The notes below the pieces were generated by a model that saw only the letters and a program-made list of their open reading frames with translations, had not been told where the DNA came from and made no database searches. 64,000 bases of DNA, taken from positions 3,446,501 to 3,510,500 of the forward strand of contig NZ_CP007029.1 of assembly GCF_000227685.2 (NCBI RefSeq). Reading direction: 5' to 3'. The translations under genes were made by a program, and so were the position numbers. The DNA is from Thioalkalivibrio paradoxus ARh 1 (lineage in GTDB: Bacteria; Pseudomonadota; Gammaproteobacteria; Ectothiorhodospirales; Ectothiorhodospiraceae). This document shows, piece after piece, positions 17,753-50,127 of this stretch. Position 1 is the stretch's first letter. Every line of letters begins with the position of its first letter.

Positions 17753-17850
17753 GCCGGCCGCCGGCGTCCGGGCCGAAGCCATCACCGATCCGACGCAGCG
17801 CTGGCGGACCGGCCGAATCGCTGGGAGGAACGCCGGTCTCGATACCGGCC

Positions 17851-18486
17851 CTATTTCTGCTGCTCCACGACCCACAGCGCCGCCTCGAGGCGGGAGTGCA
17901 TCCCGAGCTTCTTCAGCAGGTGCTTTACATGCACCTTGACCGTGCCCTCGCTCAGCCCCAGCTCCCGGGCGATCTGCTTGTTGCTCAGGCCGGCCGCAAT
18001 CTGGTCGAGCACCTCCTGTTCGCGGCGCGTCAGCATGCCGCGTTCTCCGGGGGGCGGCTTGCGACGCATCGCCTCGGCCAGACGTTCAGTAAGCTCGTCG
18101 GTCAGGATCAGGCGCCCGGAAAGCACCTGCCGCAGCTGGCGCAGCAGCTCCTCGGGCTCGGTGTGCTTCAGCAGGTAGCCATCGGCGCCAGCCCGCAGCG
18201 CGGCCACCAGATCTTCCTCTTCGTCGGACACCGTGAGCATCACCACCCGGGCGTCGATCCCGGCCTCGCGCAGCGCGCCGAGCGTCTCGGTGCCATCCAT
18301 GTCGGTCATGTTCAGGTCGAGCAGAATCAGGTCGGGCACGAGCTTCAGCGCAAGATCGAGGCCTTCGCGCCCGGAACTCGCCTCGCCCACGACCTCGAAC
18401 CCGGCCTCGATATCCATCAGGTGGCGCGCCCCCCGCCGGAACAGCGGATGGTCGTCGATGACCAGCACCCGGACCGCTTCCGGCAT
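17851..18486 (-). CDS. narL: NarL-family response regulator
   Basis: A 211-residue two-component regulator. The receiver domain (residues 4-120) shows the acidic pair IDDHPLF, the phosphorylation site LLDLNMTDMDG, the switch Thr in VMLTVSDEEED and the Lys in GYLLKHTE. The C-terminal LuxR-type helix-turn-helix reads LTRREQEVLDQIAAGLSNKQIA and SEGTVKVHVKHLLKKL, which is very like NarL/NarP. It starts one base after the stop of the sensor kinase, so both are made together. A perfect NarL-type palindrome lies in the same locus upstream of the nitrite reductase. Whether it is functionally NarL or NarP cannot be told. Confidence 0.87.
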   Translation of the reverse strand: MPEAVRVLVIDDHPLFRRGARHLMDIEAGFEVVGEASSGREGLDLALKLVPDLILLDLNMTDMDGTETLGALREAGIDARVVMLTVSDEEEDLVAALRAGADGYLLKHTEPEELLRQLRQVLSGRLILTDELTERLAEAMRRKPPPGERGMLTRREQEVLDQIAAGLSNKQIARELGLSEGTVKVHVKHLLKKLGMHSRLEAALWVVEQQK

Positions 18487-18487
18487 C

Positions 18488-20386
18488 TCAGACCGCCCAG
18501 CGCGCGGCTTCGGCCGGTTGCGGTACTGGGGCCGGCACGGGTCGGAACCGCAGCTCGACCCGGGTGCCCCCATCGGCCACCGACTCGATATCGATCGTCC
18601 CATGCAATTGCCGTGCGCGCTCGCGCATGATCGTGAGTCCGTAGTGGTTCGGTTTCTCCCGCGCCCCGGGGCGGATGCCGATGCCATCGTCGCGGATGCT
18701 CAGCAGAATCCCTTCGGATGTCCACCCGAGCCGCACCCAGGCGTGCGAGGCCCGGGCATGGCGCAACACGTTGCAAAGTGCTTCCCGGACGATCTGCAAC
18801 ACGTGGATTTCCTCGTTGATGCCAAGCTCTCCGTCGGCCAGCCCGTTCTCGAGCGCGACCTCGAGGGATCCGCGCGCGGCGACACCGGCGACCGTCTCCT
18901 CGAGCGCATGGCCGAATCCCTCACCACCGCGGCCGATCCGGAACGTCGTCAGCAGTTCGCGCAGCTGGCCGTAGGCATCGTTCAGCCCATGGTGGAGATC
19001 CTGCAGCGCCGCTTCCACTTCGTCGTTGCGCGTGGAGCCACGCAGAGCCGCGCGCAGGCGGCTGACCTGGATCTTCAGATAGCTGAGCGCCTGTGCCAAC
19101 GAGTCGTGCAATTCCCGGGCGATGGTCGCGCGCTCCTCCAGCAGCGCCAGACGCCGGCCCTGGATCGCACGACGCTGACTCGCGATCGCAACCCCCAGGT
19201 GGCGACCGATAGCCTCGACCAGCTGGACCTGCCACGGCTCGAGGCGGGTTCCCTCGGGCACCGTCATTTGCAACAGCGCGTGCAGCTCCCCGCCATCGAA
19301 CAGCGGCACCGACAGCACTTGCTGGCCACCGGGGCCCGCCTTCAACCGCGGACCCTCGCCGGCATCGCCGGTGCAGCCCGCACAGGTCTGGCGATCGCAA
19401 AGGGGGCCGCTCGAGTCGCCGATGGGCCCGGAATCGGCCAGCTGAAACCCCTTGAGGCCGCCCTGGTCGAGCAGACAGAGGCTGCCGTGCCCAAAACCGA
19501 GCAGTGCCTCCATCTCGCGCAGGGTATCGGTGTAGGTCGCCCGGTTCAGCGAGCCATCGTGCAGATGGCTCAGCGAACGGTACATCAATTCCAGCGACCG
19601 GTTGCTGTATTCCAGAGCGCGTGTCTTTTCGCGCACGCGCCCTTCGAGATCGTTGTAGAGCCGGGACAGATCCCGAGTCATGCGGTTGAATGCCGCGCCC
19701 AGCTGTCCCAGTTCGTCGCGCCCGGTATGCGCGATCTGGCGGGTGAACACACCCTGACGCACTTCCTCGGCACCGCCCAGCAGCTCGCGCAATGGGCGCA
19801 TCACCTGGCGCCGCAGAAATCGCACGGTGATGAACATTACCAGCACCATCATGAACAGGCAGGCCGCCTGCACGACACGCAGGACCTGCACGAAGGACTC
19901 GGCGCGCTGCTCGAGCTGCAGGACCATCCGGTCGACCCGATCCACGAAATCGTCGACCACCACGCGCAGATCCCGGTACGCTGCACCATCCGGGTGCACG
20001 GTGGAGAAACCGAGGATCGTCGGGCGCATTTCAGCGTCCCACATTCGTCCGATCTCGTCATAGGATCGGCGTGCGGGATGCGAGACATCGTTCGGCACCA
20101 ACCGCAGGAGCGCCTCGCTCCGGTAATGCCGTTCGAACCGTCGGAGCGCGGTCTCGAGGTCCCTCCGGTGCAGTTCGATGTCCTCGACCTCCGGCCTCAG
20201 CGCCGTAGTGCTCGCGGCATAGGTCGAAAAGCGCAGGGTTCCGGCATGATTGATCGCCGTTGCGGCTCCTCGCAGCTGCTCCGCGATGATCACCGAGGTC
20301 ACGATCCCGAACAGGGCCATCGTCGCCATCAGCGACAGCGCGAAGCCCAGTTGCACGAACAGCGATCGATGGATGAGGCGCAGCAT
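18488..20386 (-). CDS. narX: NarX-like nitrate/nitrite sensor histidine kinase
   Basis: A 632-residue inner-membrane sensor. Helix 1 spans about residues 8-30; just after it, INHAGTLRFSTYAAS resembles the P-box of NarX, the periplasmic ligand-binding helix. Helix 2 is near residues 165-185 (LFMMVLVMFITVRFL), followed by a HAMP domain, a coiled segment, a GAF-like domain with a four-cysteine cluster (CDRQTCAGC plus LC), then the HisKA_3 H-box ARELHDSLAQ and an ATP site with REALCNVLRHA and DDGIGI. NarX also carries a central cysteine cluster. It is the penultimate gene of the ccm series and precedes narL by one base. GAGGA precedes the ATG at 20386. Confidence 0.87.
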   Translation of the reverse strand: MLRLIHRSLFVQLGFALSLMATMALFGIVTSVIIAEQLRGAATAINHAGTLRFSTYAASTTALRPEVEDIELHRRDLETALRRFERHYRSEALLRLVPNDVSHPARRSYDEIGRMWDAEMRPTILGFSTVHPDGAAYRDLRVVVDDFVDRVDRMVLQLEQRAESFVQVLRVVQAACLFMMVLVMFITVRFLRRQVMRPLRELLGGAEEVRQGVFTRQIAHTGRDELGQLGAAFNRMTRDLSRLYNDLEGRVREKTRALEYSNRSLELMYRSLSHLHDGSLNRATYTDTLREMEALLGFGHGSLCLLDQGGLKGFQLADSGPIGDSSGPLCDRQTCAGCTGDAGEGPRLKAGPGGQQVLSVPLFDGGELHALLQMTVPEGTRLEPWQVQLVEAIGRHLGVAIASQRRAIQGRRLALLEERATIARELHDSLAQALSYLKIQVSRLRAALRGSTRNDEVEAALQDLHHGLNDAYGQLRELLTTFRIGRGGEGFGHALEETVAGVAARGSLEVALENGLADGELGINEEIHVLQIVREALCNVLRHARASHAWVRLGWTSEGILLSIRDDGIGIRPGAREKPNHYGLTIMRERARQLHGTIDIESVADGGTRVELRFRPVPAPVPQPAEAARWAV

Positions 20387-20539
20387 GCAGATCCTCGGAG
20401 CAACGCCGCACCCGCAGCAGGCGGCCGGCCGGGACTCCATCAAAGATGATTACATCCATGATCATAGATGGTTCCCGCAGGACATGGCGTCCGGGAATCC
20501 AGGGGACCGGCACGGCCGGAGGTCGGATCGCAGCCGATA

Positions 20540-21433: not shown

Positions 21434-21462
21434 GCACTTCTCCGAAAACTGGTTTGACAACC

Positions 21463-21501
21463 GGGCAGGACTCCCTGCCCCGCGAACTGGATCGAATCCA
21501 G
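21463..21501 (-). other. Two small hairpins between the second ccmG and second ccmI
   Basis: On the minus-strand message this intergenic gap of about 80 bases can fold into two perfect six-pair hairpins: CTGGAT-TCG-ATCCAG (21487-21501) and GGGCAG-N6-CTGCCC (21463-21480). Neither is followed by a U-tract, so they look like processing or stability elements rather than terminators. This is also the place where a ccmH gene would be expected by analogy with the other copy of the set. Confidence 0.4.
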
Positions 21502-21515
21502 AACGTAACTGGCGG

Positions 21516-22055
21516 TCATGAGTCGGCCTCGAGCTGCCGATACAGCGGGATCAGCTGGCGCTGGACAAGGTCTGCGTGCAAAGGCCCGACATGCTTGAAC
21601 CGTACCTGCCCATCGCGGTCGACCAGAAAAGTCACTGGAGTCGCGTGCACGCCCCAGTCCGCACTGACCCGTCCGTTCGGATCGAATCCGATCGCGGAGA
21701 ACGGATCTCCCCCGCGGCTCAGGTAGGCCAGGGCCTGCTCACGGCTGTCCCGGAAGTTCAGCCCGTACACCGGGATGCCCATGCGCTGAAGGTTCACCAA
21801 TGTCTGGTGCTCCTGGCGGCAGGTCACGCACCACGATGCCCAGACGTTCAGCAGCGCCGGTTTGCCGAGCATGTCCGCACTGCTGAATCGGGCCTCCGGA
21901 TCCCGCAGTTCAGGCAGGTCGAACGCCGGTGCGTCCCGGCCCACCAGTGGCTCCGCAACGTTCAGCATGTTCCAGACCAGCGCACCGGCCAGCGTCCCGA
22001 CCAGCCCGATCAGAATCAGAACGGGCAGGAAGGGGAGCAGCGAACGAGAACGCAT
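21516..22055 (-). CDS. ccmG: Thiol:disulfide oxidoreductase CcmG/DsbE, second copy
   Basis: A 179-residue membrane-anchored thioredoxin-like protein. One N-terminal helix (LPFLPVLILIGLVGTLAGALVW) anchors it in the inner membrane; the periplasmic domain has the active site WASWCVTCRQEH near residue 80, the acidic-loop GLNFRDSREQA and the cis-proline region GVHATPVTFLVDRDG. CcmG reduces the heme-binding cysteines of apocytochrome c. It follows the upstream ccmF by eight bases. The active-site dipeptide is VT here and ST in the other copy, so the two copies may differ in partner or redox potential. Confidence 0.92.
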   Translation of the reverse strand: MRSRSLLPFLPVLILIGLVGTLAGALVWNMLNVAEPLVGRDAPAFDLPELRDPEARFSSADMLGKPALLNVWASWCVTCRQEHQTLVNLQRMGIPVYGLNFRDSREQALAYLSRGGDPFSAIGFDPNGRVSADWGVHATPVTFLVDRDGQVRFKHVGPLHADLVQRQLIPLYRQLEADS

Positions 22056-22063
22056 CCCGAGCC

Positions 22064-24073
22064 TCAGGCCGATGCCGCCGACGGTCTGCCCGCGGTGTCG
22101 GCGCTATCGTCGGGCAGATCCTCTTCGCGGCGCACGCGCACGCGGTAGCGGCGGTCGGTGGCCGCCAGGAAGCCGCCCAGGCCCATCAGCACCGCGCCGG
22201 TCCAGATCCAGTTCATGTACGGCTTGTAGTAGACCCGCATCACCCAGGCATCGCTGCCCAGCGGCTCGCCCATGTTCACGTACAGATCCCGGAACAGCCC
22301 CCGGTGCAGCGAGGTGTGCGCCATCGGCATGTCCTGGCTGAAATAGTCGCGCATCTGCGGGCGCAACGTCGCCAGCTGCCGGCCGTCCTCGCGGAACACC
22401 GCAACCGTCGCCTGTTCGGCGGTGTAGTTCGGACCGTCCACGGTTTCCAGCCGATCGAGCCGGAACCCATAGCCGCCGACCTCGACCGTCTCGCCCACCG
22501 CCATGCGCACGTCGCGCTCGTCGTCGTAGCCGATCACGAAGGTGACGCCGATCACCAGCAATGCGACGCCGATGTGCGCGATCTGCATGCCGGCGTAGCT
22601 GCGCCCGAGCCGCTGGACCCGGGTGCCGAAGCCCTGCGTGCTGCCCGGGCGCCGGCGCAGGCGCTCGACCACGTCCTTCAGTGCCGAGCCGAGGATCCAC
22701 AGCCCCAGGAAGGTGCCCATCCCGGCAAGCAGCGACCAGCTGCCGACCGCCAGCGGCCAGAGCATCCCGAACACCAGGCTGAACCCGAGGATCCAGCGCA
22801 GCCGCCACAGCTGCTCGGTCGGGCTGTCCTGCTTCCAGCGCAGCCGCGGCCCGAACCCGAGCAACAGCAGCAGCGGCAGCATCAACGGCAGGAACACCGC
22901 CTCGAAGTACGGCGGGCCGACCGAGATCTTGCCCAGGCCGAACGCGTCGAGGAACAAGGGGTACAGCGTGCCCAGCAGCACCGCCGCCGCGGACACCGCC
23001 AGCAGCACGTTGTTGGTCAGCAGCGCCGACTCGCGCGAGACCAGCCCGAAGCTGCCGCCGAGGCCGACCTTGCCCGCGCGCCAGGCGAACAGCGTCAGCG
23101 AGCCGGCGACGACCACCGCCATGAAGCCGAGCAGGTACAGCCCGCGGTCGGGGTCGACCGCGAACGCGTGCACCGAGGTCAACACCCCGGAACGCACCAG
23201 GAACGCACCCAGCAGCACCAGCGAGAAGGTCAGGATCGCGAGCATCACGGTCCAGTTCTTGAACCCGCCGCGCTTCTCGGTCACCGCCAGCGAGTGCAGC
23301 AGCGCGGTACCCATCAGCCAGGGCAGGAACGACGCGTTCTCGACCGGATCCCAGAACCACCAGCCGCCCCAGCCCAGCACGTAGTACGCCCACCAGCTCC
23401 CGAGCCCGATGCCGAGCGTCAGAAACGCCCAGGCGACCGCGGTCCAGGGCCGCGACCAGCGCGCCCAGGCCGCGTCGAGCCGGCCGCCGATCAGCGCGGC
23501 AATCGCGAACGCGAACGCGACCGAGAAGCCGACATAGCCCATGTACAACATCGGCGGGTGGAAGATCAGCCCCGGATCCTGCAGCATCGGGTTGAGATCG
23601 CGCCCTTCCATCGCCGCCGGCAGCAGGCGCTCGAACGGGCTCGAGGTGAACAGGGTGAAGCCGATGAAGCCGATCGCGACCAGGCCCATCACCCCGAGCA
23701 CCCGCGCCAGCACCTCGCGCGGCAGGCTGCGGCTGAAGGTCGCGACCGCCGCACTCCACAGGCTCAGGATCAGCACCCACAAGAGCAGCGAGCCCTCGTG
23801 CCCGCCCCAGACCCCGGAAATCTTGTACTGGGTCGGCAACAGCGAGTTCGAGTGCGTCGCGACATAGCGCAGCGAGAAGTCGTCGGTGACGAAGGCGTAG
23901 GTCAATGCCGCGTAGGCGAGCGCGATGAAGAACAGCTGCCCGAACGCGGCGCTGCGCCCCACCGCCATCAGCGCGACGTCGCCGCGCGCGGCCCCGATCA
24001 GCGGCAGCGTGCCTTGCGCAATCGCCAGCAGCAGCGCCAGGATCAGCGCAAACAGTCCAAGCTCGGCCACCAT
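22064..24073 (-). CDS. ccmF: Cytochrome c heme lyase subunit CcmF, copy in the ccmCDE part
   Basis: A 669-residue inner-membrane protein with about 15 helices, the core of the synthetase that attaches heme to apocytochrome c. The tryptophan-rich WWD motif is intact (GWGGWWFWDPVENASF near residue 233), as are the family segments GGHEGSLLLWVL, HPPMLYMGYVGFSVAFAFA and LVRSGVLTSVHAFA. The large C-terminal periplasmic loop reads RDVRMAVGETVEVGGYGFRL. It lies three bases after ccmE, in the usual ccmCDEFG order, so this copy looks like the general-purpose CcmF, the other (27912-29906) being next to the nitrite reductase. Confidence 0.94.
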   Translation of the reverse strand: MVAELGLFALILALLLAIAQGTLPLIGAARGDVALMAVGRSAAFGQLFFIALAYAALTYAFVTDDFSLRYVATHSNSLLPTQYKISGVWGGHEGSLLLWVLILSLWSAAVATFSRSLPREVLARVLGVMGLVAIGFIGFTLFTSSPFERLLPAAMEGRDLNPMLQDPGLIFHPPMLYMGYVGFSVAFAFAIAALIGGRLDAAWARWSRPWTAVAWAFLTLGIGLGSWWAYYVLGWGGWWFWDPVENASFLPWLMGTALLHSLAVTEKRGGFKNWTVMLAILTFSLVLLGAFLVRSGVLTSVHAFAVDPDRGLYLLGFMAVVVAGSLTLFAWRAGKVGLGGSFGLVSRESALLTNNVLLAVSAAAVLLGTLYPLFLDAFGLGKISVGPPYFEAVFLPLMLPLLLLLGFGPRLRWKQDSPTEQLWRLRWILGFSLVFGMLWPLAVGSWSLLAGMGTFLGLWILGSALKDVVERLRRRPGSTQGFGTRVQRLGRSYAGMQIAHIGVALLVIGVTFVIGYDDERDVRMAVGETVEVGGYGFRLDRLETVDGPNYTAEQATVAVFREDGRQLATLRPQMRDYFSQDMPMAHTSLHRGLFRDLYVNMGEPLGSDAWVMRVYYKPYMNWIWTGAVLMGLGGFLAATDRRYRVRVRREEDLPDDSADTAGRPSAASA

Positions 24074-24076
24074 GCC

Positions 24077-24586
24077 TCAGTACCCCCCGGAATAGCCGCC
24101 GGGGGTGCCGCCGGGATGGCCGTCCACCGCCCCGCCGGCATCGCCGACCGTGCGCGCCTGCTCACGCTGCGCGCGCTTGATCGCCTCCGCCGCCTCCGGC
24201 GGCATGTAGGTCTCGTCGTGGCGCGCCATCACCTGGCTCGCCTTGAACACCCCGCCGTCCTGCAGGCTGCCCACCGCGACCACGCCCTGACCCTCGCGGA
24301 ACAGGTTCGGCAAAATCCCGTGATACACCACCGGCACCGCCACCGCGGTGTCGGTGACCCGGAAATGCACCGTCACGCCGTCCTCGCCCCGCTGCACGCT
24401 GCCGTCCTCGACCAGCCCGCCAATCCGGAACGTCCGCTCCATCGGCACGATGTCGGCGACGATGTCCGAAGGCGTGTAGAAAAACACCAGATTGTCCCGA
24501 AAGGCGTTGAGCACCAGCCCCGCCACCACCGCCAGACTGGCCAGCCCCCCGGCCACCAGCAACAACCGCTTCTGCCGCGTCTTCAT
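24077..24586 (-). CDS. ccmE: Heme chaperone CcmE
   Basis: A 169-residue heme chaperone anchored by one N-terminal helix (LLLVAGGLASLAVVAGLVL). The periplasmic beta-barrel carries FYTPSDI, FRIGGLVEDGSV and the heme-binding VMARHDETYMPPE, where the His (near residue 130) binds heme covalently and the Tyr ligates iron. It hands heme from CcmC/D to CcmF. The C-terminus is a flexible Gly-rich tail (GGTPGGYSGGY). Its ATG overlaps the ccmD stop (ATGA). Confidence 0.94.
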   Translation of the reverse strand: MKTRQKRLLLVAGGLASLAVVAGLVLNAFRDNLVFFYTPSDIVADIVPMERTFRIGGLVEDGSVQRGEDGVTVHFRVTDTAVAVPVVYHGILPNLFREGQGVVAVGSLQDGGVFKASQVMARHDETYMPPEAAEAIKRAQREQARTVGDAGGAVDGHPGGTPGGYSGGY

Positions 24587-24753
24587 CGCGTACCCTCCTG
24601 CTCGTTCAACCGGGCCATGCGCTTGAGCCAGCCCACCAGACTGCGCCGGCGATAGCGCAACTGCACCAGCTCCACCAGCAACAGCCCGGCCATCACCAAA
24701 TACGAGCCCCAGACATAGGGCGCATACCCGCCCATCGCCAGAAACTCCATCAT
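24583..24753 (-). CDS. ccmD: Small heme exporter protein CcmD
   Basis: A 56-residue protein: MMEFLAMGGYAPYVWGSYLV then a single membrane helix (MAGLLLVELVQL) and a basic cytoplasmic end RYRRRSLVGWLKRMARL. The GGYAPYVWGSY segment is the CcmD signature. CcmD bridges CcmC and CcmE during release of heme-loaded CcmE. The gene overlaps ccmC by four bases at its start and ccmE by four bases at its end. Confidence 0.9.
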   Translation of the reverse strand: MMEFLAMGGYAPYVWGSYLVMAGLLLVELVQLRYRRRSLVGWLKRMARLNEQEGTR

Positions 24754-25519
24754 GTCTCACCCTCCAGCCGTTCCCGTACCCAGCGCGCTCGACGCTCGCG
24801 CTCCAGCAACTCGATCCGCGCCCGCGCCAGCACCACCGCAATCGAATACATCCAGCACGCCAGCACCATGATCAGCAAGGTCACGAACATGATCGTCGCC
24901 ATCGTCGGCGCCTCGGTCACCGTGATCGACGCACCCTGGTGCAAGGTGTTCCACCACTGCACCGAGAAATAAATGATCGGCACGTTCACCACCCCCACCA
25001 GCGCCAGCACCGCACTCGCGTTCGCCGCCCGCTGGCGATCGTCGATCGCCGCATGCAATGCCATGTAGCCGAGATACAAAAACAGCAGAATAAGTTCCGA
25101 CGTCAGCCGTGCATCCCAGACCCAGTACACCCCCAGGTCGGCCGCCCCCACAATGCGCCGGTCCACAACGCCAGGAACGTGAACAACGCACCCGTCGGCG
25201 CAATCGCCTTCGCCATCACCTCCGCCATCTTGATCCGCCAGATCAGCCCGATCCCGGCATAGACCGCCATCAATACGTACAAAAACATCGACATCCACGC
25301 CGTCGGCACGTGAATGTAGATGATCCGGTAACTGTCCCCCTGCTGATAATCCGGCGGCGCCACCACCAGTCCCAGATACAGCCCCGCCGCGAACAGCAGC
25401 ACCGTCAGCCCGGCAAACCACGGAATCAACCGCCCCGCCAGATCGTAGAAATTCGCCGGCGCCGTGAACCGGAACCACTGGATACCCCGGTCCGCGACCG
25501 CGGTGCTTCGCTGCGACAT
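24750..25519 (-). pseudogene. ccmC: Heme exporter CcmC, interrupted by a one-base frameshift
   Basis: The first part (25519 to about 25135) reads as CcmC: basic N-terminus, helices, the IYIHVPTAWMSMFLYVLMAVY segment with its conserved His, and WTGALWGRPTWG. It then runs off into a short wrong-frame tail. The remainder continues in the next frame as GVYWVWDARLTSELILLFLYLGYMA through to GET at 24750, giving a complete C-terminus. A run of five G on the minus strand (25130-25134) lies exactly at the junction; one additional G restores a 256-residue protein of normal CcmC length. The break is inside the WGxYWVWD heme-handling motif. CcmC is essential for system I maturation, so a sequencing error, slippage, or a second ccmC elsewhere are all possible. 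GGAGG precedes the ATG. Confidence 0.88.
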
Positions 25520-25595
25520 CGAACATGCCTCCGCTGACGTTCGGTTGGCCCCGCTGCGCCGACGCCGGTCCGTGGCGCCGGCCAGCGGCGCGCAA

Positions 25596-26864
25596 TCAGG
25601 GCCTGACGGTATCGATCACCAGGCGCACATCGTTGCTGCCGACCTCAACCTCGTCCAGAACCCCTTCCAGATCGCCTGGGCGGGCACGCGAGTCGCCGTG
25701 ACGCGAGACACGCGCAACCAGTGTGATGCTCTCATGGTTCGACAACACATGGTCGGCGGACATCGCAAGGCTGTCGTCGAGCGTGAACGCGACCGGCAGC
25801 TGGTCGAGCTGGGTGCTCAGCGCAGCCAGCGGCAGGGTGTTGCCGGTCAGGGTACGCGCAAACAGGTACACGGTGTCGCCGGGTTCAGCCTGGTCCGCGA
25901 GCTCGGGCGCCAACTCGACGACGCCGGACACGGTCACCAGATCGCTCGGCTCGAGCTCCGACTCGCCGAACGCCTCGACGTGCCCGTGAACCCGGGCGTT
26001 GCGCACCATTGCGGTGAGCTCGTCGTGCGCCGGCGTGCCCTCCGGCAGTTGGCCCAGCAGCTGGTTCCAATAGTAGGCGGCAGTGGTGTATTCGCGGTTT
26101 TGGTAGGCATGGATCCCGGCAAGTTCCAGCCCTTTTTGATCTTCAGCGTCGAGCTGCAGCGCCTCACGCACCAGCGCGATCGGACGCCCACTGAGGTCGC
26201 GGCCGGCGTTCACTGCCAGCGCCTCGGCATAACCCGAGACGACCGCCGCCGTCTCGGGCAGCAACTCGTACGCGCGTGCGAACGCAGCCTCGGCATCCTC
26301 CCAGCGATCACGAGCAATGTAGGCGTTGGCGAGGAAGGTCCAGCTCACGCCATCCTCCGGATCCTCGCGCACGGCTTCTTCAAGGGTTGCAAGCGCGTCG
26401 TCGACCTGGCGGTCCAGCCGTTCCAGGGCCTCCTGCATCTCACGCTGGCGCTCTTGTTCCTCCTGCTCTGCTGCCGCGACCTTGATCACGAAACCGGGTT
26501 CTCCAACCACCAGGTAAGCGCCCAGCGCCAGCGCCGGGATCACCGCGGCCAGCCCGGTGGCGAGCCGGCGAGCGCCGCCGGTTGCCGAACCTGCAGCCTC
26601 GGCCCCGGTAAGGGCGTCCTGGGCGAGGCGCGCCTCGAGTTCCGCACGCGCGGCATCGCGTTGGGCGTCGCTGAGCAGCCCATTGCGGTGATCCTCTTCC
26701 AGTTCACGGTATTGGTCCCGGTACACTGCGATGTTGAGTTCGCGCCGGTCCAGCGCGTCCTTCGCGGGCCGGCGCAGAGCGGCGGGCAGCACCCATACCA
26801 GCACCACGGCGACCATCAGCAAGGCCAGAACCCAGAAAGCGGCTACGGATACGATCGAATTCAA
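25596..26864 (-). CDS. ccmI: Cytochrome c biogenesis protein CcmI (full-length copy)
   Basis: A 422-residue CcmI. Helix 1 (IVSVAAFWVLALLMVAVVLVWVLP) starts at the N-terminus, followed by the family segment VYRDQYRELEEDHRNGLLSD, helix 2 near residue 100, a charged coiled stretch, TPR repeats from about residue 150 (GVSWTFLANAYIARDRWEDAEAAFARA) and a C-terminal beta-rich domain. It presents apocytochrome to the heme lyase. The start is a TTG at 26864 with AGAGAGGT upstream; the first in-frame ATG would cut into helix 1. It follows ccmH by five bases. Confidence 0.9.
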   Translation of the reverse strand: MNSIVSVAAFWVLALLMVAVVLVWVLPAALRRPAKDALDRRELNIAVYRDQYRELEEDHRNGLLSDAQRDAARAELEARLAQDALTGAEAAGSATGGARRLATGLAAVIPALALGAYLVVGEPGFVIKVAAAEQEEQERQREMQEALERLDRQVDDALATLEEAVREDPEDGVSWTFLANAYIARDRWEDAEAAFARAYELLPETAAVVSGYAEALAVNAGRDLSGRPIALVREALQLDAEDQKGLELAGIHAYQNREYTTAAYYWNQLLGQLPEGTPAHDELTAMVRNARVHGHVEAFGESELEPSDLVTVSGVVELAPELADQAEPGDTVYLFARTLTGNTLPLAALSTQLDQLPVAFTLDDSLAMSADHVLSNHESITLVARVSRHGDSRARPGDLEGVLDEVEVGSNDVRLVIDTVRP

Positions 26865-26869
26865 CGGAT

Positions 26870-27400
26870 TTACCTCTCTTCTTGCATCGGGGAACCGGAC
26901 ACGGATCGCGAGGCGGCCCGTGCTCCGGACGGATGGGTGTCGGATTCCAGCAGTCGGGCCGCCTCGCGCAGCATTTCCGGGCTGACCCCCTGCGCGGCCG
27001 TCACGGTCCGGCGGCGGTGCAGCGTCGCAGCGGCGAGCCCCACACCGATCAGCAGGAACGCCAGCGGCCCGCCCCAGAGCGCGTAGGTCATCGGCTTGAC
27101 CGGGGGGCGGTACAGCACGAAATCGCCGTACCGGGCGACCAGCGACTCGACCACTTCGTCGTCGGTCATTCCGTCGCGCATCATCTCGCGAATCTCCTCG
27201 CGCAGGTCGAGCGCCAGCGAAGCACGCGATTCGGCCAGCGATTCGTTCTGGCAGACGACGCAGCGCAGATCCGCCGCCAGCACGTTCAGGCGTGCCTCCA
27301 GTACCGGATCGTCGGCATTCGGAAGGGCCGGCTGGCCGGCCGGCAACAGGGCCGGAACCAGCCAGAGCAGCACGACTGCCAGCAGGACCCGCCGCCTCAT
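26870..27400 (-). CDS. ccmH: Cytochrome c biogenesis protein CcmH
   Basis: A 176-residue protein with a signal peptide, then LNVLAADLRCVVCQNESLAES: RCVVCQ is the redox-active CxxC of CcmH, which works with CcmG to reduce apocytochrome cysteines and is part of the CcmF heme lyase. A helical domain (REEIREMMRDGMTDDEVVESLVARYGDFVLY) and one C-terminal helix follow, the normal order for a short CcmH/NrfF/CcmL. This is the only CcmH in the window, although ccmF, ccmG and ccmI all occur twice. Its ATG at 27400 overlaps the ccmG stop. Confidence 0.93.
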   Translation of the reverse strand: MRRRVLLAVVLLWLVPALLPAGQPALPNADDPVLEARLNVLAADLRCVVCQNESLAESRASLALDLREEIREMMRDGMTDDEVVESLVARYGDFVLYRPPVKPMTYALWGGPLAFLLIGVGLAAATLHRRRTVTAAQGVSPEMLREAARLLESDTHPSGARAASRSVSGSPMQEER

Positions 27401-27915
27401 GTCCGCAACTCCTGCAGCAGAGGCACGAATTTCTGCTCCCATACCGACGGCGTGATCGCGCCTACGTGCTTCATGCGGATGATGCCGTCACGGTCGATCA
27501 CAAAGGTCTCGGGAGTCACCGTGACGCCGTAACGGATCGCGACGCGCCCGTCGCGGTCGTCGACCGCCGCGACATAGGGGCTGCCGTTGCGCGCCAGCAA
27601 TGGCGCCGCCTCGCGGTCAAGATCCTTCCACGTGAGGCCGTAGATCGGTACCCGGCCGGCCACCATTCGTGGCAAGTGGCGGTGTTCCTCGAGACAGGTG
27701 CTGCACCACGGCGCCCAGATGTTCAACAGCCAGACCTGCCCGCGCACCTCCGAAGGGGAGAAGGTCTCGCCCGGGCTCCCGACCACGGGCAGCGTGAAGT
27801 CCGGTGCCGGGCGGCCCACGAGCGGAGACGGCACTTCCTTGGGGTTCAGGTACAGGCCAAGGTACAGGAACACGCCCAGTGCGGTGACCAGCAACAGCGG
27901 GATCCAGCGCCTCAT
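27397..27915 (-). CDS. ccmG: Thiol:disulfide oxidoreductase CcmG/DsbE, copy next to the nitrite reductase
   Basis: A 172-residue protein with an N-terminal anchor (WIPLLLVTALGVFLYLGLYL) and a periplasmic thioredoxin fold; the active site is WAPWCSTCLEEH near residue 70 and the cis-proline region GVTVTPETFVIDRDG. It supplies electrons to the heme-binding cysteines of apocytochromes. It overlaps ccmF upstream and ccmH downstream by four bases each, so ccmF-G-H are tightly coupled. The other copy at 21516-22055 differs in the CxxC dipeptide and in the anchor. Confidence 0.92.
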   Translation of the reverse strand: MRRWIPLLLVTALGVFLYLGLYLNPKEVPSPLVGRPAPDFTLPVVGSPGETFSPSEVRGQVWLLNIWAPWCSTCLEEHRHLPRMVAGRVPIYGLTWKDLDREAAPLLARNGSPYVAAVDDRDGRVAIRYGVTVTPETFVIDRDGIIRMKHVGAITPSVWEQKFVPLLQELRT

Positions 27916-29906
27916 GTCGCCACCTCCTCGCGCGGTGCCGCCGCCGGCCGCGTGGCCATTGCCGGTTCGCGGCGCCGCAACACCACGCGGTAGCGCCGGT
28001 CGGCAGCGGCCAGCGTGCCGCCGATCGCAAGCAGCAGCGCTCCAACCCAGAGCCAGCCGACGAACGGCTTGTGGTAGACGCGCACCGTCCAGACGCCGTC
28101 TCCCAGCGGCTCGCCGAGAGACACGTACACATCACGGAACGGCCCGTAGTTCACCGCTGCCTGGGTCATGATCATTCCCGAGGCATTGTAGTTGCGCTTC
28201 TCCGGGTACAGCGTGAACGAACGACCCCAGGGGCTGGTGATCTCCATCGTGCCGCGCCCGGCGACGTAGTTCGGACCCGGCAACTCCTCCACTCCCTGGA
28301 AAACGAACCGGTAGCCCGCAAGCTCCACGTGGCTGCCGATAGGCATGCGCACGTCGCGCTCGGTCTCGTAGTTGGAAACGACCGTCACGCCAACGACCAG
28401 GAACGCGAGCCCCAGGTGTGCGATCTGCATCCCCCAGAACGACCGCGGCAGACGCGCAAGTTCCCGGATGCGACCGCCGCGCTTGTGCTGCAGGCGCAGC
28501 GCGAAACCCTTGAGCACGGTGAACAGGATCCACAGCGCCAGGAACAGACCCAGGCTCACTTTCCAATTGATGCCGTCGACCGTCAGCGGCAACAGCGCGG
28601 CCGTGACGAGCGCGACCGCGAATGCCCATTTCAATCGCCCTATCAGGTCCGGGAGATCAGCCTGCTTCCAGCGTGCCAGCGGCCCCAGACCCACCAGGAA
28701 CAGCACTGGCGCCACCAGCGGCACAAAGACCGCGTTGAAGTACGGCGGACCGACCGAGATCTTGCCGAGGCCCAGCGCGTCGAGGAACAGTGGATAGAGC
28801 GTGCCCAGCAGCACTGCGCCGAGCGCCGCGACCAGGAACACGTTGTTCGTCAGCAGCAGCGACTCGCGCGAGAACCAGCCGAACGATCCCCCGGAAAGCA
28901 TACGCGGCGCCCGTAGCGCGTACAGGATCATCGAGCCCCCGATGACGACTCCGAGGAAACTCAGAATGAACAACCCGCGCATCGGGTCGGTGGCAAAGGC
29001 ATGGACCGAGGACAACACCCCGGAGCGCACCAGGAAGGTGCCGAGCAGCGACAGCGAGAACGTCGCAATCGCAAGCAGCACCGTCCAATTGCTGAACACG
29101 CCGCGCTTCTCGGTAGCCGCCAGCGCATGGATCAGCGCAGTACCGGCGAGCCAGGGCATCAGCGAGGCGTTCTCGGTCGGATCCCAGAACCACCAGCCAC
29201 CCCAGCCCAACTCGCGGTAGGCCCACCAGCTGCCCAGCGCAACGCCCATCGTCAGGAAGGTCCAGGCCGCAGTGGTCCAGGGCCGCGACCAACGGGCCCA
29301 AGCCGCGTCGAGCCGCCCCGACAACAGCGCCGCGATCGCAAACGCGAACGCGACCGAAAACCCGACATACCCCATGTAGAGCAATGGCGGGTGCGAGATC
29401 ATGCCGACATCCTGCAGCAGCGGGTTCAGGTCGCGTCCGTCAGCGGGTATCGGGAACAGGCGCTCGAACGGGTTCGAGGTGAAGATCAGCAGTGCCAGAA
29501 AGCCGACGCTGATCAGCCCCATCACACCCAACACGCGCGCGACCATCTCCTCCGGCAACTGGCGCGAAAACACCGCGACGGCGGCCGACCAGCCGGCCAG
29601 GATCACCGTCCAGAACAGCAGCGAGCCCTCGTGGGATCCCCAGGTCGCGGTGAATCGGTACACCGCGGGGAGCTGCGAGAAGGAGTTCTGCGCGACATTC
29701 TTCACCGAGAAGTCGTGCGCGAGGAAGGACCAGGCAAGCGCCGCGAACGCCGTCAGCAGCAGCACGAACTGCGCCTGGGCCAGGGGCTTGCCGAGTGCCA
29801 TCATCCGGCTGTCGCCGCGTTGGGCGCCAATCAGAGGTACGGTCCCCTGCACCAGCGCCAGCACAAGCGCGAGGACCACCGCGAACTGTCCCAGCTCCGG
29901 GATCAT
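27912..29906 (-). CDS. ccmF: Cytochrome c heme lyase subunit CcmF/NrfE, copy next to the nitrite reductase
   Basis: A 664-residue polytopic heme lyase subunit with the WWD motif GWGGWWFWDPTENASL, GSHEGSLLFWTVI, HPPLLYMGYVGFSVAFAFA and LVRSGVLSSVHAFA, and a C-terminal periplasmic loop with RDVRMPIGSHVELAGYRF. It is the first gene after the octaheme nitrite reductase and its terminator. In E. coli the CcmF paralogue NrfE is needed to attach heme to the CXXCK site of NrfA; position and duplication suggest this copy does the same for the CXXCK site of the octaheme enzyme, which is inference. The ribosome-binding site is near-perfect (AGGAGGTGA, then ATG). Confidence 0.93.
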   Translation of the reverse strand: MIPELGQFAVVLALVLALVQGTVPLIGAQRGDSRMMALGKPLAQAQFVLLLTAFAALAWSFLAHDFSVKNVAQNSFSQLPAVYRFTATWGSHEGSLLFWTVILAGWSAAVAVFSRQLPEEMVARVLGVMGLISVGFLALLIFTSNPFERLFPIPADGRDLNPLLQDVGMISHPPLLYMGYVGFSVAFAFAIAALLSGRLDAAWARWSRPWTTAAWTFLTMGVALGSWWAYRELGWGGWWFWDPTENASLMPWLAGTALIHALAATEKRGVFSNWTVLLAIATFSLSLLGTFLVRSGVLSSVHAFATDPMRGLFILSFLGVVIGGSMILYALRAPRMLSGGSFGWFSRESLLLTNNVFLVAALGAVLLGTLYPLFLDALGLGKISVGPPYFNAVFVPLVAPVLFLVGLGPLARWKQADLPDLIGRLKWAFAVALVTAALLPLTVDGINWKVSLGLFLALWILFTVLKGFALRLQHKRGGRIRELARLPRSFWGMQIAHLGLAFLVVGVTVVSNYETERDVRMPIGSHVELAGYRFVFQGVEELPGPNYVAGRGTMEITSPWGRSFTLYPEKRNYNASGMIMTQAAVNYGPFRDVYVSLGEPLGDGVWTVRVYHKPFVGWLWVGALLLAIGGTLAAADRRYRVVLRRREPAMATRPAAAPREEVAT

Positions 29907-30064
29907 GCATCACCTCCTGCACGCGGGCCGTGACAGGGACTGGAAAATTTCCCGCGGACCAGACCGGCCACCGGGAAACCTGAAGATCTTGCGAATTCGG
30001 TGCACACGGAGAACACCCCGGTGCAAAAAGCATATGGCATTGGGACGACCGGCAGAAAACATGG

Positions 30065-30095
30065 AAAAAAGGAGCCGGCGGCTAGCGCCGGCTCC
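30065..30095 (-). terminator. Intrinsic terminator between nitrite reductase and ccmF
   Basis: On the minus strand a ten-pair GC-rich hairpin (arms 30086-30095 and 30071-30080, loop of five) is followed directly by six U residues (30070-30065), a textbook Rho-independent terminator. It begins 21 bases after the nitrite reductase stop. It should let the reductase be made in excess over the maturation genes downstream, which would depend on read-through or on their own promoter in 29907-30064. Confidence 0.88.
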
Positions 30096-30115
30096 CATTG
30101 GCGGCAACGCTGAGG

Positions 30116-31777
30116 CTAGTTCGCTGCCACGGCGGCGTCGATCGCCGCATCCAGCTTGCCTACCCCTTCCTTGCTCTTGGTGATGGACTTCATCAGCGAC
30201 TCACGCGCCTGATCGGGGTTGTGGAAGCCCACCGAGTTCTCGGCGGTCCACCATTCCCAATGCAGGTGTGCGTCGTAGTGGAGCGCCCGCACCTCGTTGA
30301 GCACATCCTCCGACACGCCGGCCCGCTTCGCAACCGGGAACAGGTCGATCATACGGGCGAGCCAGAACTCGGCCTTCATGATCTTGCCGTGCGTGTAGTT
30401 CTTGATGTAGTCGATCGCGTACTCCGCCTCGGCCTCCGTCCAGCCGTCATGGCAGTTCAGGCAGGCACGATTCATCATGTCGCGCGGGGTGCGCGGGCTG
30501 TGCATCGTGTACTCCTTGCCGTTCTCCAGCTTGACCCTCGGCATGTGGCAGTCGGCACAGGTCACGCCGTTGCGCTCATGCGTGGAGCCCCAGAAGGTCT
30601 CCAGTTCCGGATGCTGCAGCTTGGGCAGCGGTGCACCGGTGGTCACATGCGTGAAGTCAAAGAAGTCGATCTCCTTCGCGGCTTCCGCGTAGTCGAACAC
30701 GTTGGCCCAGAAGAAGTGGTTGGTACGACGGTCGTCCATACCGACCGGAGCACCGTCACTCTGCTGGAAGCCCGGGTTGCAGTTGTATTCGACGTGGCAC
30801 TGACCGCACATCAGGTTGGAGTCGGCGACATTCAGCAGGCCGATCTTGCGGAAGTCTTCGCCGCCACGCTGGAAGGTCACCGGGGTCAGCGTGACATGCT
30901 CGCTCTTCGCCTCGTCATAGGGGTAGGTGCCCAGTCCCTGGTCGACGACCGCGTGGATCAGCGCATCGCGCACCACGCGCGGCTCGGTCGAGTGCGGATC
31001 GTGACACATATAGCAGTTCACCGGATGGTGCAGGTCACGTGCGAAGTCGACGACCTTCGAGGTCCGTGCCCACTTCGCAGCGTCGTGCTCGTCACCCATG
31101 TAGGCCCAATCCAGGATGTGATCCTGGGTCTTGCAGTTCAGGCATACCGGGTTCGCCGCAGTGGCGGTCTGGGCCAGGAAGCGGCGCTGATCCGACGTCG
31201 TCGGATCCATGTCCTCGATCACCGTCCAGGCGCCGCGAACCGCACCGAGACCATCGGTGACGTTCTGCCAGCTCTTGTACTGGAAACGGCCGCCGTAAGC
31301 CCGGTCGACGATGAAGTGGTCAACCAGCATGAACGCGTGGCTGCGCGGCTCCGCATGCTCGAGCGAGAAACCGTGCGCCCCGATCAGGGTGTCGAACTTC
31401 GGCGAGCGGCTGCGCGGGTTCGCCTTCTCCTCGCGCGGGTGGGACTCGTGGCGCACCGATGCGAACGAGTTGAACTGCGCGGTATGGCAGGAAGCACAGG
31501 CCTCAGGGGACGTGTGCGTGACCGGCCGCTCACCCATACGCCGGGCGCTGGCCGTTTCCACATGCTCGGTGGCATCGTGGCAGTGCACACAGTTCACGGT
31601 CGCGTGCTTGCCTACAACGTGCATGTCCTCGATCTGCGTGTGGCAGTCGTAGCACTGCAGCGCGTCCACGGGTTTGAGCTGGTCCCCCGACCCCGCATGC
31701 GCGGCGGAGGCCAGGAACAGACAGGCTGCCCCCGCGACCCATCGGCCCACACGGCCGAGTCTATTCAAATCATTCAT
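30116..31777 (-). CDS. Octaheme cytochrome c nitrite reductase (TvNiR type)
   Basis: A 553-residue periplasmic enzyme: a 28-residue signal peptide ending AHA, then 525 residues, exactly the size of TvNiR. Eight heme sites are visible: CYDCH 42, CVHCH 63, CASCH 94, CLNCK 212, CYMCH 255, CGQCH 324, CADCH 407, CLNCH 439. The fourth uses Lys and is the catalytic heme. In mature numbering Arg131, Lys188, Tyr303 and His361 all fall in place, and Cys305, which forms the unusual thioether to Tyr303, is present (EYNCNPGF). The enzyme reduces nitrite (and sulfite) to ammonia (and sulfide) as a hexamer. It starts at ATG 31777 after GGAGAACCTGT, heads the minus-strand ccm series and diverges from fccAB. 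Confidence 0.97.
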
Positions 31778-31949
31778 ACAGGTTCTCCTCTCCTCGGCTC
31801 CTCGGGCCTTCCACATGCCTCCGAGCCGCTTGTCTGCCTTTACGGTCTATGCGGGACATCCCTTCAGAACGCCCCACCCCTGTAGCCACCCCCGGATCCG
31901 GGTGCGGACGAAGCCTTAAAGCGGGCCTCCCCCTCGTCCCTCTCAGCCA

Positions 31950-31984
31950 AACAGGGGCGCGGTTTCGGGTCGCGCCCCTGTTTT
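31950..31984 (+). terminator. Strong hairpin plus T-tract in the nitrite reductase leader region
   Basis: Twelve-base perfect arms (31950-31961 with 31971-31982) enclose GTTTCGGGT and are followed by two more T on the plus strand, so the end reads GTTTTCC. It has the shape of an intrinsic terminator for a plus-strand transcript, yet no plus-strand gene precedes it: it would end an RNA antisense to the nitrite reductase start. On the minus strand it lies 173 bases ahead of the reductase start codon, inside any leader made from an upstream promoter, where it could act in attenuation or RNA stability. Confidence 0.5.
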
Positions 31985-32122
31985 CCGAAAGGTCGGATGC
32001 GATGATCCGGGCGCTGCCTTCCTCTGCTGCTCCCTGGGCACGCGTTCCAATGCCCGATCGTTCGTGACCGATGACATCGACTGTAGCGTCACCGTCGGTT
32101 CCTGCTCGCATCCTTAGGGGAA

Positions 32123-32128
32123 CTTATA
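32123..32128 (-). promoter_or_regulatory. Candidate -10 element for the nitrite reductase
   Basis: TATAAG on the minus strand, about 115 bases downstream of the NarL palindrome in the direction of the nitrite reductase. No -35 match to TTGACA is seen at 16-18 bases, as often found at activator-dependent promoters. The implied leader is about 340 bases. This is a weak call from sequence only. Confidence 0.3.
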
Positions 32129-32235
32129 GCACATCTGCTTGCCCATCATGCTCAGCGAACCCAAGAAATCACGCCACCTCCCCACGATGGTTTCAACATT
32201 ACCAACGGGTGGCACCCATGCCCTGGGTAGAGCGC

Positions 32236-32251
32236 TACCTATTTATAGGTA
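32236..32251. promoter_or_regulatory. Perfect 7-2-7 NarL/NarP binding palindrome
   Basis: The sequence TACCTAT-TT-ATAGGTA is two heptamers in inverted orientation with a two-base spacer. Both match the NarL/NarP consensus TACYYMT without mismatch, and the 7-2-7 arrangement is the one bound by NarP and by NarL. It lies 459 bases from the nitrite reductase start and 350 bases from fccA, and the cognate-looking NarXL pair is encoded at the end of the same gene cluster. Binding and which direction is controlled are inferred. Confidence 0.75.
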
Positions 32252-32600
32252 AAAGGCGTTACCCCCATGGGAACAAGCAACCCCCACACCCAAGCCGACC
32301 CCATCTCAACTTACTGAATTTGGTGACTTTCTTGGGCTCGCGGCGACGCGCGCAAGCGCTCGAGCAATTTTGCAGGAATGATGTAATGTATAAGGGGCGT
32401 GCGCCAGACCACAATTCAGAGAGTCTCAAAACACAACGTTTTTCTAATACGCAAGACCTCGAACTGACTCATGGGTCCGCATCGCTTCTCCGGCCGGAGT
32501 CCGCGCCCGGACGCGCAGCCGGAAAAACATTCACTGCACCCAAAAGGCGCGAAGACGCCTGGCAGCACACTTATAGATAAGCCCAAAGGGCGAAGGAGGC

Positions 32601-33206
32601 ATGATGAGACGAACCAGACTGAAGGCGATCGTGGTCGCCGGCCTGCTGACGGCCGGCTCGGCGGCGGTTGCAGACAACACGCCGATGTCGGGGCAGATGC
32701 TCGCGTTCCAGTGCGCCGGCTGCCATGGCTACAACGGCCACAGTGTCGGGCCGGCAACGCCGTCGCTTGCGGGATTCCCGAAGGAGTACTTCGTGGACTC
32801 GATGATGGCTTACAAGGATGGCAGCCGGTACGCGACCATCATGGATCGCGTGGCGATGGGCTATACCGAGGAGCAGTTCGAGGCGATGGCCGAGTTTTTC
32901 GCCGCCCAGCCCTACCTGCCGGCGCAACAGGACTACGATCCCGAGCTCGCCGAGCGCGGCGCCGAGATTCACGATCAGCACTGCAATACCTGTCACTCCG
33001 AGGGCGGCCGCTACCCGGAGCCGGACACCGCACCGATCGCCGGGCAGTGGATGCCCTACCTGCGCGACTCCTTCGAGGACTTCCGGGACCACGGGCGCTG
33101 GCAGCCACGCGGGATGGAGCGGCGACTGCTGTCGGTGGACGATCTGGAGGCGCTGGTCCACTACTACGGCAGCCAGCAGGACCCCGCGGCCTACGTGTTT
33201 GACTGA
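32601..33206 (+). CDS. fccA: Diheme cytochrome c subunit of flavocytochrome c (FccA)
   Basis: A 201-residue periplasmic cytochrome with a Sec signal peptide (AIVVAGLLTAGSAAVA) and two class I heme sites, CAGCH at 38 and CNTCH at 128, one in each half, the layout of FccA and cytochrome c4. Met residues after each site can serve as the sixth ligands. FccA receives electrons from the flavoprotein FccB as it oxidises sulfide and passes them to a soluble c-type acceptor. GAAGGAGG precedes the ATG pair at 32601. fccB follows after 16 bases. Confidence 0.93.
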   Translation: MMRRTRLKAIVVAGLLTAGSAAVADNTPMSGQMLAFQCAGCHGYNGHSVGPATPSLAGFPKEYFVDSMMAYKDGSRYATIMDRVAMGYTEEQFEAMAEFFAAQPYLPAQQDYDPELAERGAEIHDQHCNTCHSEGGRYPEPDTAPIAGQWMPYLRDSFEDFRDHGRWQPRGMERRLLSVDDLEALVHYYGSQQDPAAYVFD

Positions 33207-33222
33207 TTCAGGAGACCGACAG

Positions 33223-34518
33223 ATGGCGAATTTCACCCGAAGGAGATTCATTCAGGCTGCTGGGCTGGGCAGCCTCGCGGCGACCCTGCCGTTCGGCACC
33301 GCCTGGAGCAGCCAGACCAAGGCGCGCGTGGTGGTCGTCGGCGGCGGCACCGGCGGGGCGATCGCGGCCCGCTACGTGAAGGCGCTGGACCCGGCGATCG
33401 ACGTCACCATCGTCGAAGCCAATCCGGAATACACCAGCTGCTACATGAGCAACTGGGTGTTGGCCGAGATGCGCGACCTCGACAGCCTCACACATGGCTA
33501 CGACAACGTGAAGGCACGCGGCATCAATGTCGTGATCGATACCGCGACCCGAATCGATACCGAGGGGCAGAAAGTGCTGACCGCGGGCGGCAAGAGCCTG
33601 CCCTATGATCGGCTGATCGTATCGCCCGGCATCGATTTCCAATGGGGCGCGATCGAGGGCTACGACGAGGCGGCTTCACAGGTGCTGCCCCACGCCTGGA
33701 AGGCAGGGCCGCAGACGCTGCTGCTGCGCGATCAGGTCGCGGCGATGCCCGAGAACGGCTTGGTCACGATCGTCGCCCCGCCGAACCCGTTCCGCTGTCC
33801 GCCAGGACCCTACGAGCGCGCGGCGCTGATCGCGAATTTCTGCACGCGGCACAAGCCCAACGCGAAGATCGTGATCTACGATGCCAAGGACGCATTCTCC
33901 AAGCAGGGCCTGTTCCAGGCTGGCTGGGAACGCCATTACCCGGGCATGATCGAGTGGGTCGGCGGCTTCGAGACCGGGGGAGGGATCCGGCGAGTGGATC
34001 CTGCTGCCAAGACGCTGCACACCGACTTCGACGACTTCGAGGCGGACGTGATCAACGTGATCCCGCCGCAGACCGCCGGACGCATCGCGGTCGACTCGGG
34101 CCTGACCGACGACTCCGGGTGGTGTCCGGTCGATTACCGCGACCTGCAGTCGACGCTCGCGCAGAACGTGCACGTGATCGGCGACGCGATGGTCAGCAGC
34201 GCCCTGCCGAAGTCCGGCTACATCGCGGCCTCGACCGCGAAGGTGGCGGCACTGGCCGTGGTCGACCACATCAACGGCCGCGAGCCCGGCGCGCCGGCGT
34301 ACTTCAACACCTGCTACAGCCTGCTGACGCCCGAGCACAGCATCTCGGTCTCCGGGGTCTACGAGGCCGGCCAGACCGATGACGGCCAACAGACGATCCT
34401 GCCGGTCGGCGACTCGGTCGCGGTATCGCCGGCAGACGCCGACGACCTCTACCAAGGCCGCGAGGCCCGGTACGCAGCCAGCTGGTACGACAACCTGATC
34501 GACCAGGGCTTCGGCTAA
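33223..34518 (+). CDS. fccB: Flavoprotein subunit of sulfide dehydrogenase (FccB)
   Basis: A 431-residue FAD enzyme that oxidises sulfide to sulfur or polysulfide. The N-terminus is a Tat signal (TRRRFIQAAGLG), so it is exported folded with FAD. The FAD Rossmann motif VVVVGGGTGGAIAARY starts at 36; Cys73 (YTSCYMSNW) matches the cysteine covalently bound to FAD in Allochromatium; Cys192 (NPFRCPPGPYE) and Cys364 (FNTCYSLL) form the redox-active pair. A GD motif (VIGDAM) closes the flavin site. Start ATG 33223 has AGGAGA eight bases upstream. A hairpin terminator follows the gene. Confidence 0.95.
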   Translation: MANFTRRRFIQAAGLGSLAATLPFGTAWSSQTKARVVVVGGGTGGAIAARYVKALDPAIDVTIVEANPEYTSCYMSNWVLAEMRDLDSLTHGYDNVKARGINVVIDTATRIDTEGQKVLTAGGKSLPYDRLIVSPGIDFQWGAIEGYDEAASQVLPHAWKAGPQTLLLRDQVAAMPENGLVTIVAPPNPFRCPPGPYERAALIANFCTRHKPNAKIVIYDAKDAFSKQGLFQAGWERHYPGMIEWVGGFETGGGIRRVDPAAKTLHTDFDDFEADVINVIPPQTAGRIAVDSGLTDDSGWCPVDYRDLQSTLAQNVHVIGDAMVSSALPKSGYIAASTAKVAALAVVDHINGREPGAPAYFNTCYSLLTPEHSISVSGVYEAGQTDDGQQTILPVGDSVAVSPADADDLYQGREARYAASWYDNLIDQGFG

Positions 34519-34529
34519 GGCCATTTGCC

Positions 34530-34566
34530 GGACCCCGCCGTCGGTAGCCAGCCGATGGTGGGGTCC
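34530..34566. terminator. Hairpin terminator after fccB
   Basis: Arms 34530-34544 and 34552-34566 pair over 15 bases with two G-T-type mismatches around a seven-base loop, 11 bases past the fccB stop; AGTTTCC follows. It lies between convergent genes and would mainly end the fccAB message. Confidence 0.7.
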
Positions 34567-34646
34567 AGTTTCCGCTGCTTCGGCAGCGTCTTGTGTTCCG
34601 TGCAGAACCGGGTCGCTCGCAGACCGCCCGAGTCAGGTCATCCGCG

Positions 34647-49943: not shown

Positions 49944-50127
49944 GGACACGGATCCCCGGTCTGCATCGGCGGTTCCGGATTCTGGCCCACGCCCCGAATC
50001 CCGGCAACCTCCTCCGGCACCGGTCTACCCCTCACAGGGTAGGAGTGGTACAAAGGGGTACGCAACCATCGGGCAGATTGCTGCTGCGCAGGCCGCCCGC
50101 CATGCACCAGCCGCCCTTGGAACCGGA

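Follow-up and report, generated by a model that had tools for sequence, protein, structure and literature searches.

Operators of the response regulators NarL and NarP are built from heptamers of the consensus TACYYMT. In E. coli, the operators at ogt and nrf, and the multi-site region upstream of narG, consist of inverted heptamers separated by 2 bp (the 7-2-7 arrangement, described in the accessible text of PMC9314961), with extra sites nearby, and lie upstream of promoters controlled by nitrate or nitrite; such sites and their use are covered in the accessible parts of PMC9314961 and PMC12285233. NarP regulons have also been reconstructed by comparative genomics (PMC1274295, PMC1805755), and the available part of PMC1274295 reports predicted NarP sites before nitrogen-oxide genes, including the common upstream region of the divergent norB and nirK genes in Neisseria. 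In their accessible parts, the two reconstructions do not treat Thioalkalivibrio, the octaheme nitrite reductase or fccAB, and the motif words were not found in the available text of PMC1805755.

The octaheme reductases of Thioalkalivibrio (Tv.) nitratireducens and Tv. paradoxus are known for their structure and catalysis, and no account of their regulation was found in the partly accessible literature searched. NarL control of a Thioalkalivibrio nitrite reductase or of flavocytochrome c sulfide dehydrogenase was untreated in the titles and abstract openings searched, a collection that subscription journals mostly lie outside.

The locus analyzed here, from the soda-lake sulfur bacterium Tv. 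paradoxus ARh 1, resembles the E. coli operators in its inverted heptamers 2 bp apart and the extra sites beside them. It differs from them in its target, which is an octaheme instead of a pentaheme nitrite reductase, in a fixed geometry of four half-sites with no FNR site seen, and in a greater distance from the -10 element than in the E. coli ogt constructs, where the sites are located 32-65 bp upstream of the -10 according to the accessible text of PMC9314961. As far as the literature searched shows, the kind of operator is thus known, whereas its target and geometry are new. Throughout, the window is the whole stretch of DNA analyzed (64,000 nucleotides), to which coordinates refer unless genome positions are given.

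Results

The palindrome lies between divergent genes, in the following arrangement.

30116..31777, minus strand: octaheme cytochrome c nitrite reductase (TvNiR type), with a mature part identical to PDB 3sxq/3ttb
32236..32251, no strand: perfect 7-2-7 NarL/NarP-type inverted repeat TACCTAT-TT-ATAGGTA, by motif match
32601..33206, plus strand: fccA, dihaem cytochrome subunit of flavocytochrome c sulfide dehydrogenase, by domain match
33223..34518, plus strand: fccB, flavoprotein subunit of 431 amino acids, by its FCSD domains

The identity of the reductase to the PDB entries, which we take to be those of Tv. paradoxus, extends over 525 residues. Within the 823-bp spacer between the reductase start (31777, minus strand) and fccA (32601, plus strand), the sequence TACCTATTTATAGGTA has zero mismatches to TACYYMTNNAKRRGTA (TACYYMT-N2-AKRRGTA). 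A whole-genome pattern search returned it as the sole perfect 7-2-7 of the 3,756,729-bp (3.76-Mb) genome, which bears out the earlier note, made from the sequence alone, in reporting a perfect 16-base NarL/NarP palindrome in this divergent spacer. That note also considered a chance match in the spacer unlikely, and the expectation is indeed low: with window composition as the basis, the expected number of perfect matches is 0.13 for the genome and 0.00003 for the spacer, the latter figure rising to 0.00008 at the spacer's own composition, and none of 2000 spacer shuffles contained one.

The 7-2-7 motif is not enriched genome-wide in these genomes. The backward pattern, used as a control, had perfect matches in 11 of 47 family genomes versus 2 of 47 for the true pattern; with at most one mismatch, it gave 2 and 5 matches in G000 and G013, versus 2 and 1 for the true pattern. 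The case for an operator therefore rests on place and conservation. A 7-2-7 with one mismatch at genome position 1621180 was set aside, as it is located about 200 bp from an enoyl-ACP-reductase-type gene and not from a nitrogen gene. The window also contains a second TACC-N8-GGTA (50026-50041), inside or before a Crp-type gene, in the 5' part of ORF 49900-50877; it was absent from the stretch of G013 that was read.

Alignment of the spacers with those of relatives revealed a larger element, with the palindrome as its core.

32226..32263, minus strand (read towards the nitrite reductase): four-half-site array GGTA-N8-TACC-N8-GGTA-N6-TACC, from the spacer alignment
32200..32203, plus strand: a fifth half-site core, separated from the array by 22 bp and retained in four of five genomes

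The search for the reductase in 47 family genomes gave matches at E <= 0.001 in 12 of them. Six genomes encode an enzyme of at least 79% identity (G000, G013, G027, G031, G034 and G036), and the remaining six have only matches of 32-37%. Five spacers were compared; for both G036 copies and for PLM2.Bin7, the contigs begin inside the reductase gene. All five aligned spacers share GGTA-N8-TACC-N8-GGTA-N6/7-TACC, with the half-sites spaced by about one helical turn. The near-match heptamers previously noticed beside the palindrome are real parts of this conserved array, their cores being the outer ones at 32260-32263 and 32226-32229, and are joined by the fifth core in most of the genomes. The array was found, once each, in five of the six family genomes with the reductase and in none of the 41 others, the backward-pattern control giving 0. 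In a sample of 369 genomes from the class, which shares 4 with the 47 family genomes, it was found in this genome only, with one control match.

Conservation is confined to the half-site cores. Over the five aligned spacers, two of which are close, all 16 core columns and 0 of the 22 other array bases are invariant, against a background of 84 invariant columns among the 458 with letters in all five rows (alignment columns 379-1000); this counting followed the recognition of the four-site pattern in the alignment, so that the very small probability calculated from it is an overstatement, and the eight columns of the central repeat had been named beforehand by the NarL consensus. Flank identity is 40-54% in nine of the ten spacer pairs and 71% between the window and G013, the closest pair. 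The earlier note had made retention of the palindrome alongside the gene pair a check of its proposal. The TACC-N8-GGTA core passed this check, being invariant in 5/5 spacers, whereas the full 7-2-7 consensus is degenerate, with 0 mismatches in the window, 1 each in G013, G034 and G027, and 3 in G031. The same mismatch level was reached by 0, 5, 11, 6 and 842 of 2000 spacer shuffles, respectively; the G031 match is no better than shuffles, so the support for G031 comes from the alignment. In the 20 half-sites of the five spacers, which are related sequences and not independent, position 5 is Y in 17, position 6 is A or C in 15, position 7 is T in 9, and G occurs at positions 5 or 6 in none.

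For distant octaheme reductases (L007-L012 and L014-L016; 9 of 27 loci), no TACC-N8-GGTA was present in the 159-800 bp read upstream of estimated start positions, and the best 7-2-7 was no better than in shuffles. Array-like sites at two mismatches, found at 7 places in eight genomes versus 6 for the control, were ignored.

On the reductase side of the array, two further elements were predicted.

32123..32133, minus strand: predicted extended -10 of the reductase promoter, TGTGCTATAAG, with no recognisable -35, based on the 9-mer TGTGCTATA, which is invariant in 5/5 spacers
30070..30096, minus strand: intrinsic terminator-like stem (11 pairs and a T-run) just 3' of the reductase gene, from the scan and relatives

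The 9-mer is the longest word common to the five spacers between the array and the reductase. The distance from the array core centre to the TATA is 115, 116, 115, 92 and 93 bp in the five spacers, the two groups of values differing by about two helical turns; assuming the predicted -10, the array is at about -105 to -128. The best -35 candidate matched 4/6 positions, at an unusual 19-bp spacing, and a missing -35 would be as expected of an activated promoter. Between the array and the reductase, none of the five spacers contains an FNR site at two or fewer mismatches; a two-mismatch FNR match in G027 is situated beyond the array, away from the reductase. IHF-like one-mismatch matches on the fcc side, present in 4/5 spacers, were too weak to use, and Rfam gave 0 matches in the window. 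A GC-rich hairpin, AACAGGGGCGCG...CGCGCCCCTGTTT, occupies 31948-31984 in the long predicted reductase leader; in the five-spacer alignment it is shared only with G013, and an attenuator or a relic is possible.

A promoter consensus scan of 17700-34600 returned 0 promoter-like sites (1.7 in shuffles), and thus did not pick up the predicted reductase promoter, and a terminator scan of the same region returned 8 terminator-like sites versus 9.1 in shuffles. With counts near the shuffle level, a consensus scan alone proves neither promoter nor terminator. The stem behind the reductase ranks first in strength among the 8 sites, and similar stems followed by a T-run occur at 5/5 compared loci (the window, G013, G027 and the two G036 copies). 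This position and recurrence suggest that the reductase probably has its own transcript, and the ccm-narXL genes downstream would then probably depend on read-through or on a promoter of their own; a single long transcript from the reductase to narXL is weakened by the stem. The metagenome-assembled genome (MAG) G036 has two octaheme reductase loci (L002 and L005), each followed by its own ccm genes, with contig breaks just inside the reductase.

A candidate regulatory pair is encoded on the same strand as the reductase.

17851..18486, minus strand: NarL response regulator, NCBIfam NF007935 with 282 bits (cut-off 250)
18488..20443, minus strand: NarX-like sensor kinase with the P-box-like AINHAGTLRFSTY, by domain and family matches

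These genes lie about 12-14 kb from the palindrome (narL about 14 kb), so the NarXL-like pair that had been placed in the same locus is indeed there. In the alignment, the NarL recognition helix TVKVHVKH is as in E. coli NarL. The sensor scores 389.5 bits for NarQ (cut-off 553) and 353.9 bits for NarX (cut-off 578), below both cut-offs; these are by far its best family matches. Its domain order is kept, its true start is probably internal, and one Arg aligns with an Arg of NarQ 5iji and a Lys of 5jeq, which is presumably the nitrate-binding residue.

The minus strand carries cytochrome c maturation genes followed by narX-like and narL, and the block ccm-narX-narL-mtfA/gshA is kept in relatives. 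The reductase and narXL are on one contig in this genome and in G013; in the other genomes they are on separate contigs, each with ccm or other block genes. Among the matches listed, NarL orthologues of at least 70% identity occur in 7 of 47 genomes, namely, the five array genomes (a 58-residue fragment in G027), G036 and G030, a draft genome in which NarXL of the locus type is present and the reductase was not found. A ccmC-like gene at 24750-25519 is split over two frames, with Pfam Cytochrom_C_asm matching its front half in ORF 25103-25519 and its back half in the overlapping ORF 24750-25595, which is a frameshift or a sequencing error.

Discussion

The array is likely an operator of phosphorylated NarL (NarL~P) for the octaheme nitrite reductase. 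The earlier note's proposal of a NarL-type operator gains from half-site cores kept in all comparable spacers and from the linked NarXL pair, and its proposal of nitrite reductase control from the co-occurrence of array and reductase and the invariant extended -10 on the reductase side. A conserved cluster of NarL-type half-sites before the reductase gene makes nitrate/nitrite switching of the enzyme probable. In the proposed mechanism, the NarX-like kinase would sense nitrate (or nitrite), and NarL, most likely the product of the narL gene that this gene block carries at a distance of about 14 kb, would be phosphorylated. A NarL dimer would bind the central 7-2-7, further NarL units would fill the flanking half-sites, and the bound NarL would activate the extended -10 promoter, the TATA of which is 92-116 bp downstream of the core; both the sign of regulation and the transcription start are predictions. 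The transcript would probably end at the terminator just after the gene. Several observations count against this reading: the full consensus is matched exactly only in the window, the 7-2-7 is not enriched genome-wide, the array is farther from the -10 than the ogt sites are, no FNR site accompanies it on the reductase side, the sensor scores below the NarX and NarQ cut-offs, the 19-kb stretches around the nar genes of G000 and G013 have no TACC-N8-GGTA, and such a site is missing from the nine distant octaheme reductase loci read.

The earlier note further proposed that one operator controls nitrite reduction and sulfide oxidation, so that NarL~P would tie the divergent fccAB to nitrate or nitrite through a shared site. 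This extension appears doubtful. The divergent layout is kept in the four genomes with both sides assembled, and in these the distance between array and fccA is 337, 337, 335 and 318 bp, with diverged DNA in between; in G027, the reductase and fcc are on separate contigs, each ending on the side where the other is expected. Reductase and fcc-like genes are also linked, in a different orientation, in the gammaproteobacterial MAG locus L007 (3081-7554): an octaheme reductase (63%) there shares one strand with one fccB-like and two fccA-like genes in head-to-tail order. The near-constant distance, together with this partnership, makes a functional tie of both enzymes credible. Against shared control stands the distribution of the array. 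FccB of the window kind (at least 56% identity over the match) is encoded in 11 genomes, and the array is present in 5 of them; G030, G036 and G042, which have fccB and no array, contain fccAB fragments only. The three readable copies in reductase-free genomes, G037 (79% identical FccB), G045 and G041, have no array in the readable kilobase upstream of fccA, where the best array scores (10, 10 and 12 of 16, respectively) are as in shuffles, nor was it found anywhere in these genomes. By this distribution, the array travels with the reductase and not with fccAB. The fcc side of the compared spacers (incomplete there in G027) furthermore holds no common word of 7 or more bases except the ribosome-binding site, and no conserved fcc promoter was found in them. 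In G037, fccAB is located directly behind a Crp/FNR-family regulator gene (L116, 96-1705), and the top NarL match found there has 34% identity; fccAB may perhaps be under different control there. The claim on sulfide oxidation is not supported by this evidence, and a co-option of the array by fccAB is no more than possible. The fullest version of the claim, in which NarL~P cooperatively fills four to five half-sites and thereby activates the octaheme reductase together with the divergent sulfide dehydrogenase, is rather unlikely on the same evidence.

Another question is which regulator reads the operator. This genome encodes three NarL paralogues with 64%, 62% and 50% identity to the locus NarL, so we infer which NarL binds. 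Reading by a paralogue, either the narG-linked one (1.71 Mb, some 7 kb from narG) or that at 3.53 Mb, is unlikely: two of the paralogues have near-identical recognition helices, and the stretch around the 50% paralogue holds one TACC-N8-GGTA, but it is the locus NarL that tracks the array, with orthologues in all five array genomes. In addition, no TACC-N8-GGTA was found around the narG-linked paralogue in G000 and G013, where the 19-kb stretches around the nar genes were covered, or around the 3.53-Mb paralogue of G000 and its G013 counterpart. CsoR-type repressors use TACC...GGTA repeats as well, and the array might be used by such a repressor or by another regulator with this preference, given that the invariance is limited to the 4-base cores, that TACC-N8-GGTA alone is not NarL-specific and that the window also encodes LysR-type and Crp-type regulators. 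This is improbable, as half-site positions 5-6 follow the YM of NarL, with no G, and Pfam gave no CsoR-type family match in the 53 window ORFs scanned, all of at least 80 amino acids. A chance palindrome without function, for which one could cite the matches of the backward-pattern controls and the absence of the window's other TACC-N8-GGTA from the G013 stretch read, is already contradicted by the low expectation in the spacer and by the retention of exactly the half-site cores across five diverged spacers, and is very hard to credit.

Control of the reductase by the locus NarL thus remains the preferred reading, and the cell probably switches its octaheme reductase with nitrate or nitrite. 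The accessible text of PMC5328954 reports that Tv. paradoxus is unable to use nitrogen oxides as acceptor, so that in this organism the reductase may have a role in detoxification or act on another substrate; narG is present in this genome. The array provides an exact operator candidate, and its position in the same spacer lets nitrogen-oxide signalling to sulfide oxidation be examined cleanly. If the two-way switch were true, nitrate or nitrite would directly command sulfide oxidation in a chemolithotroph, and electrons from sulfide would be fed to nitrite ammonification or detoxification.
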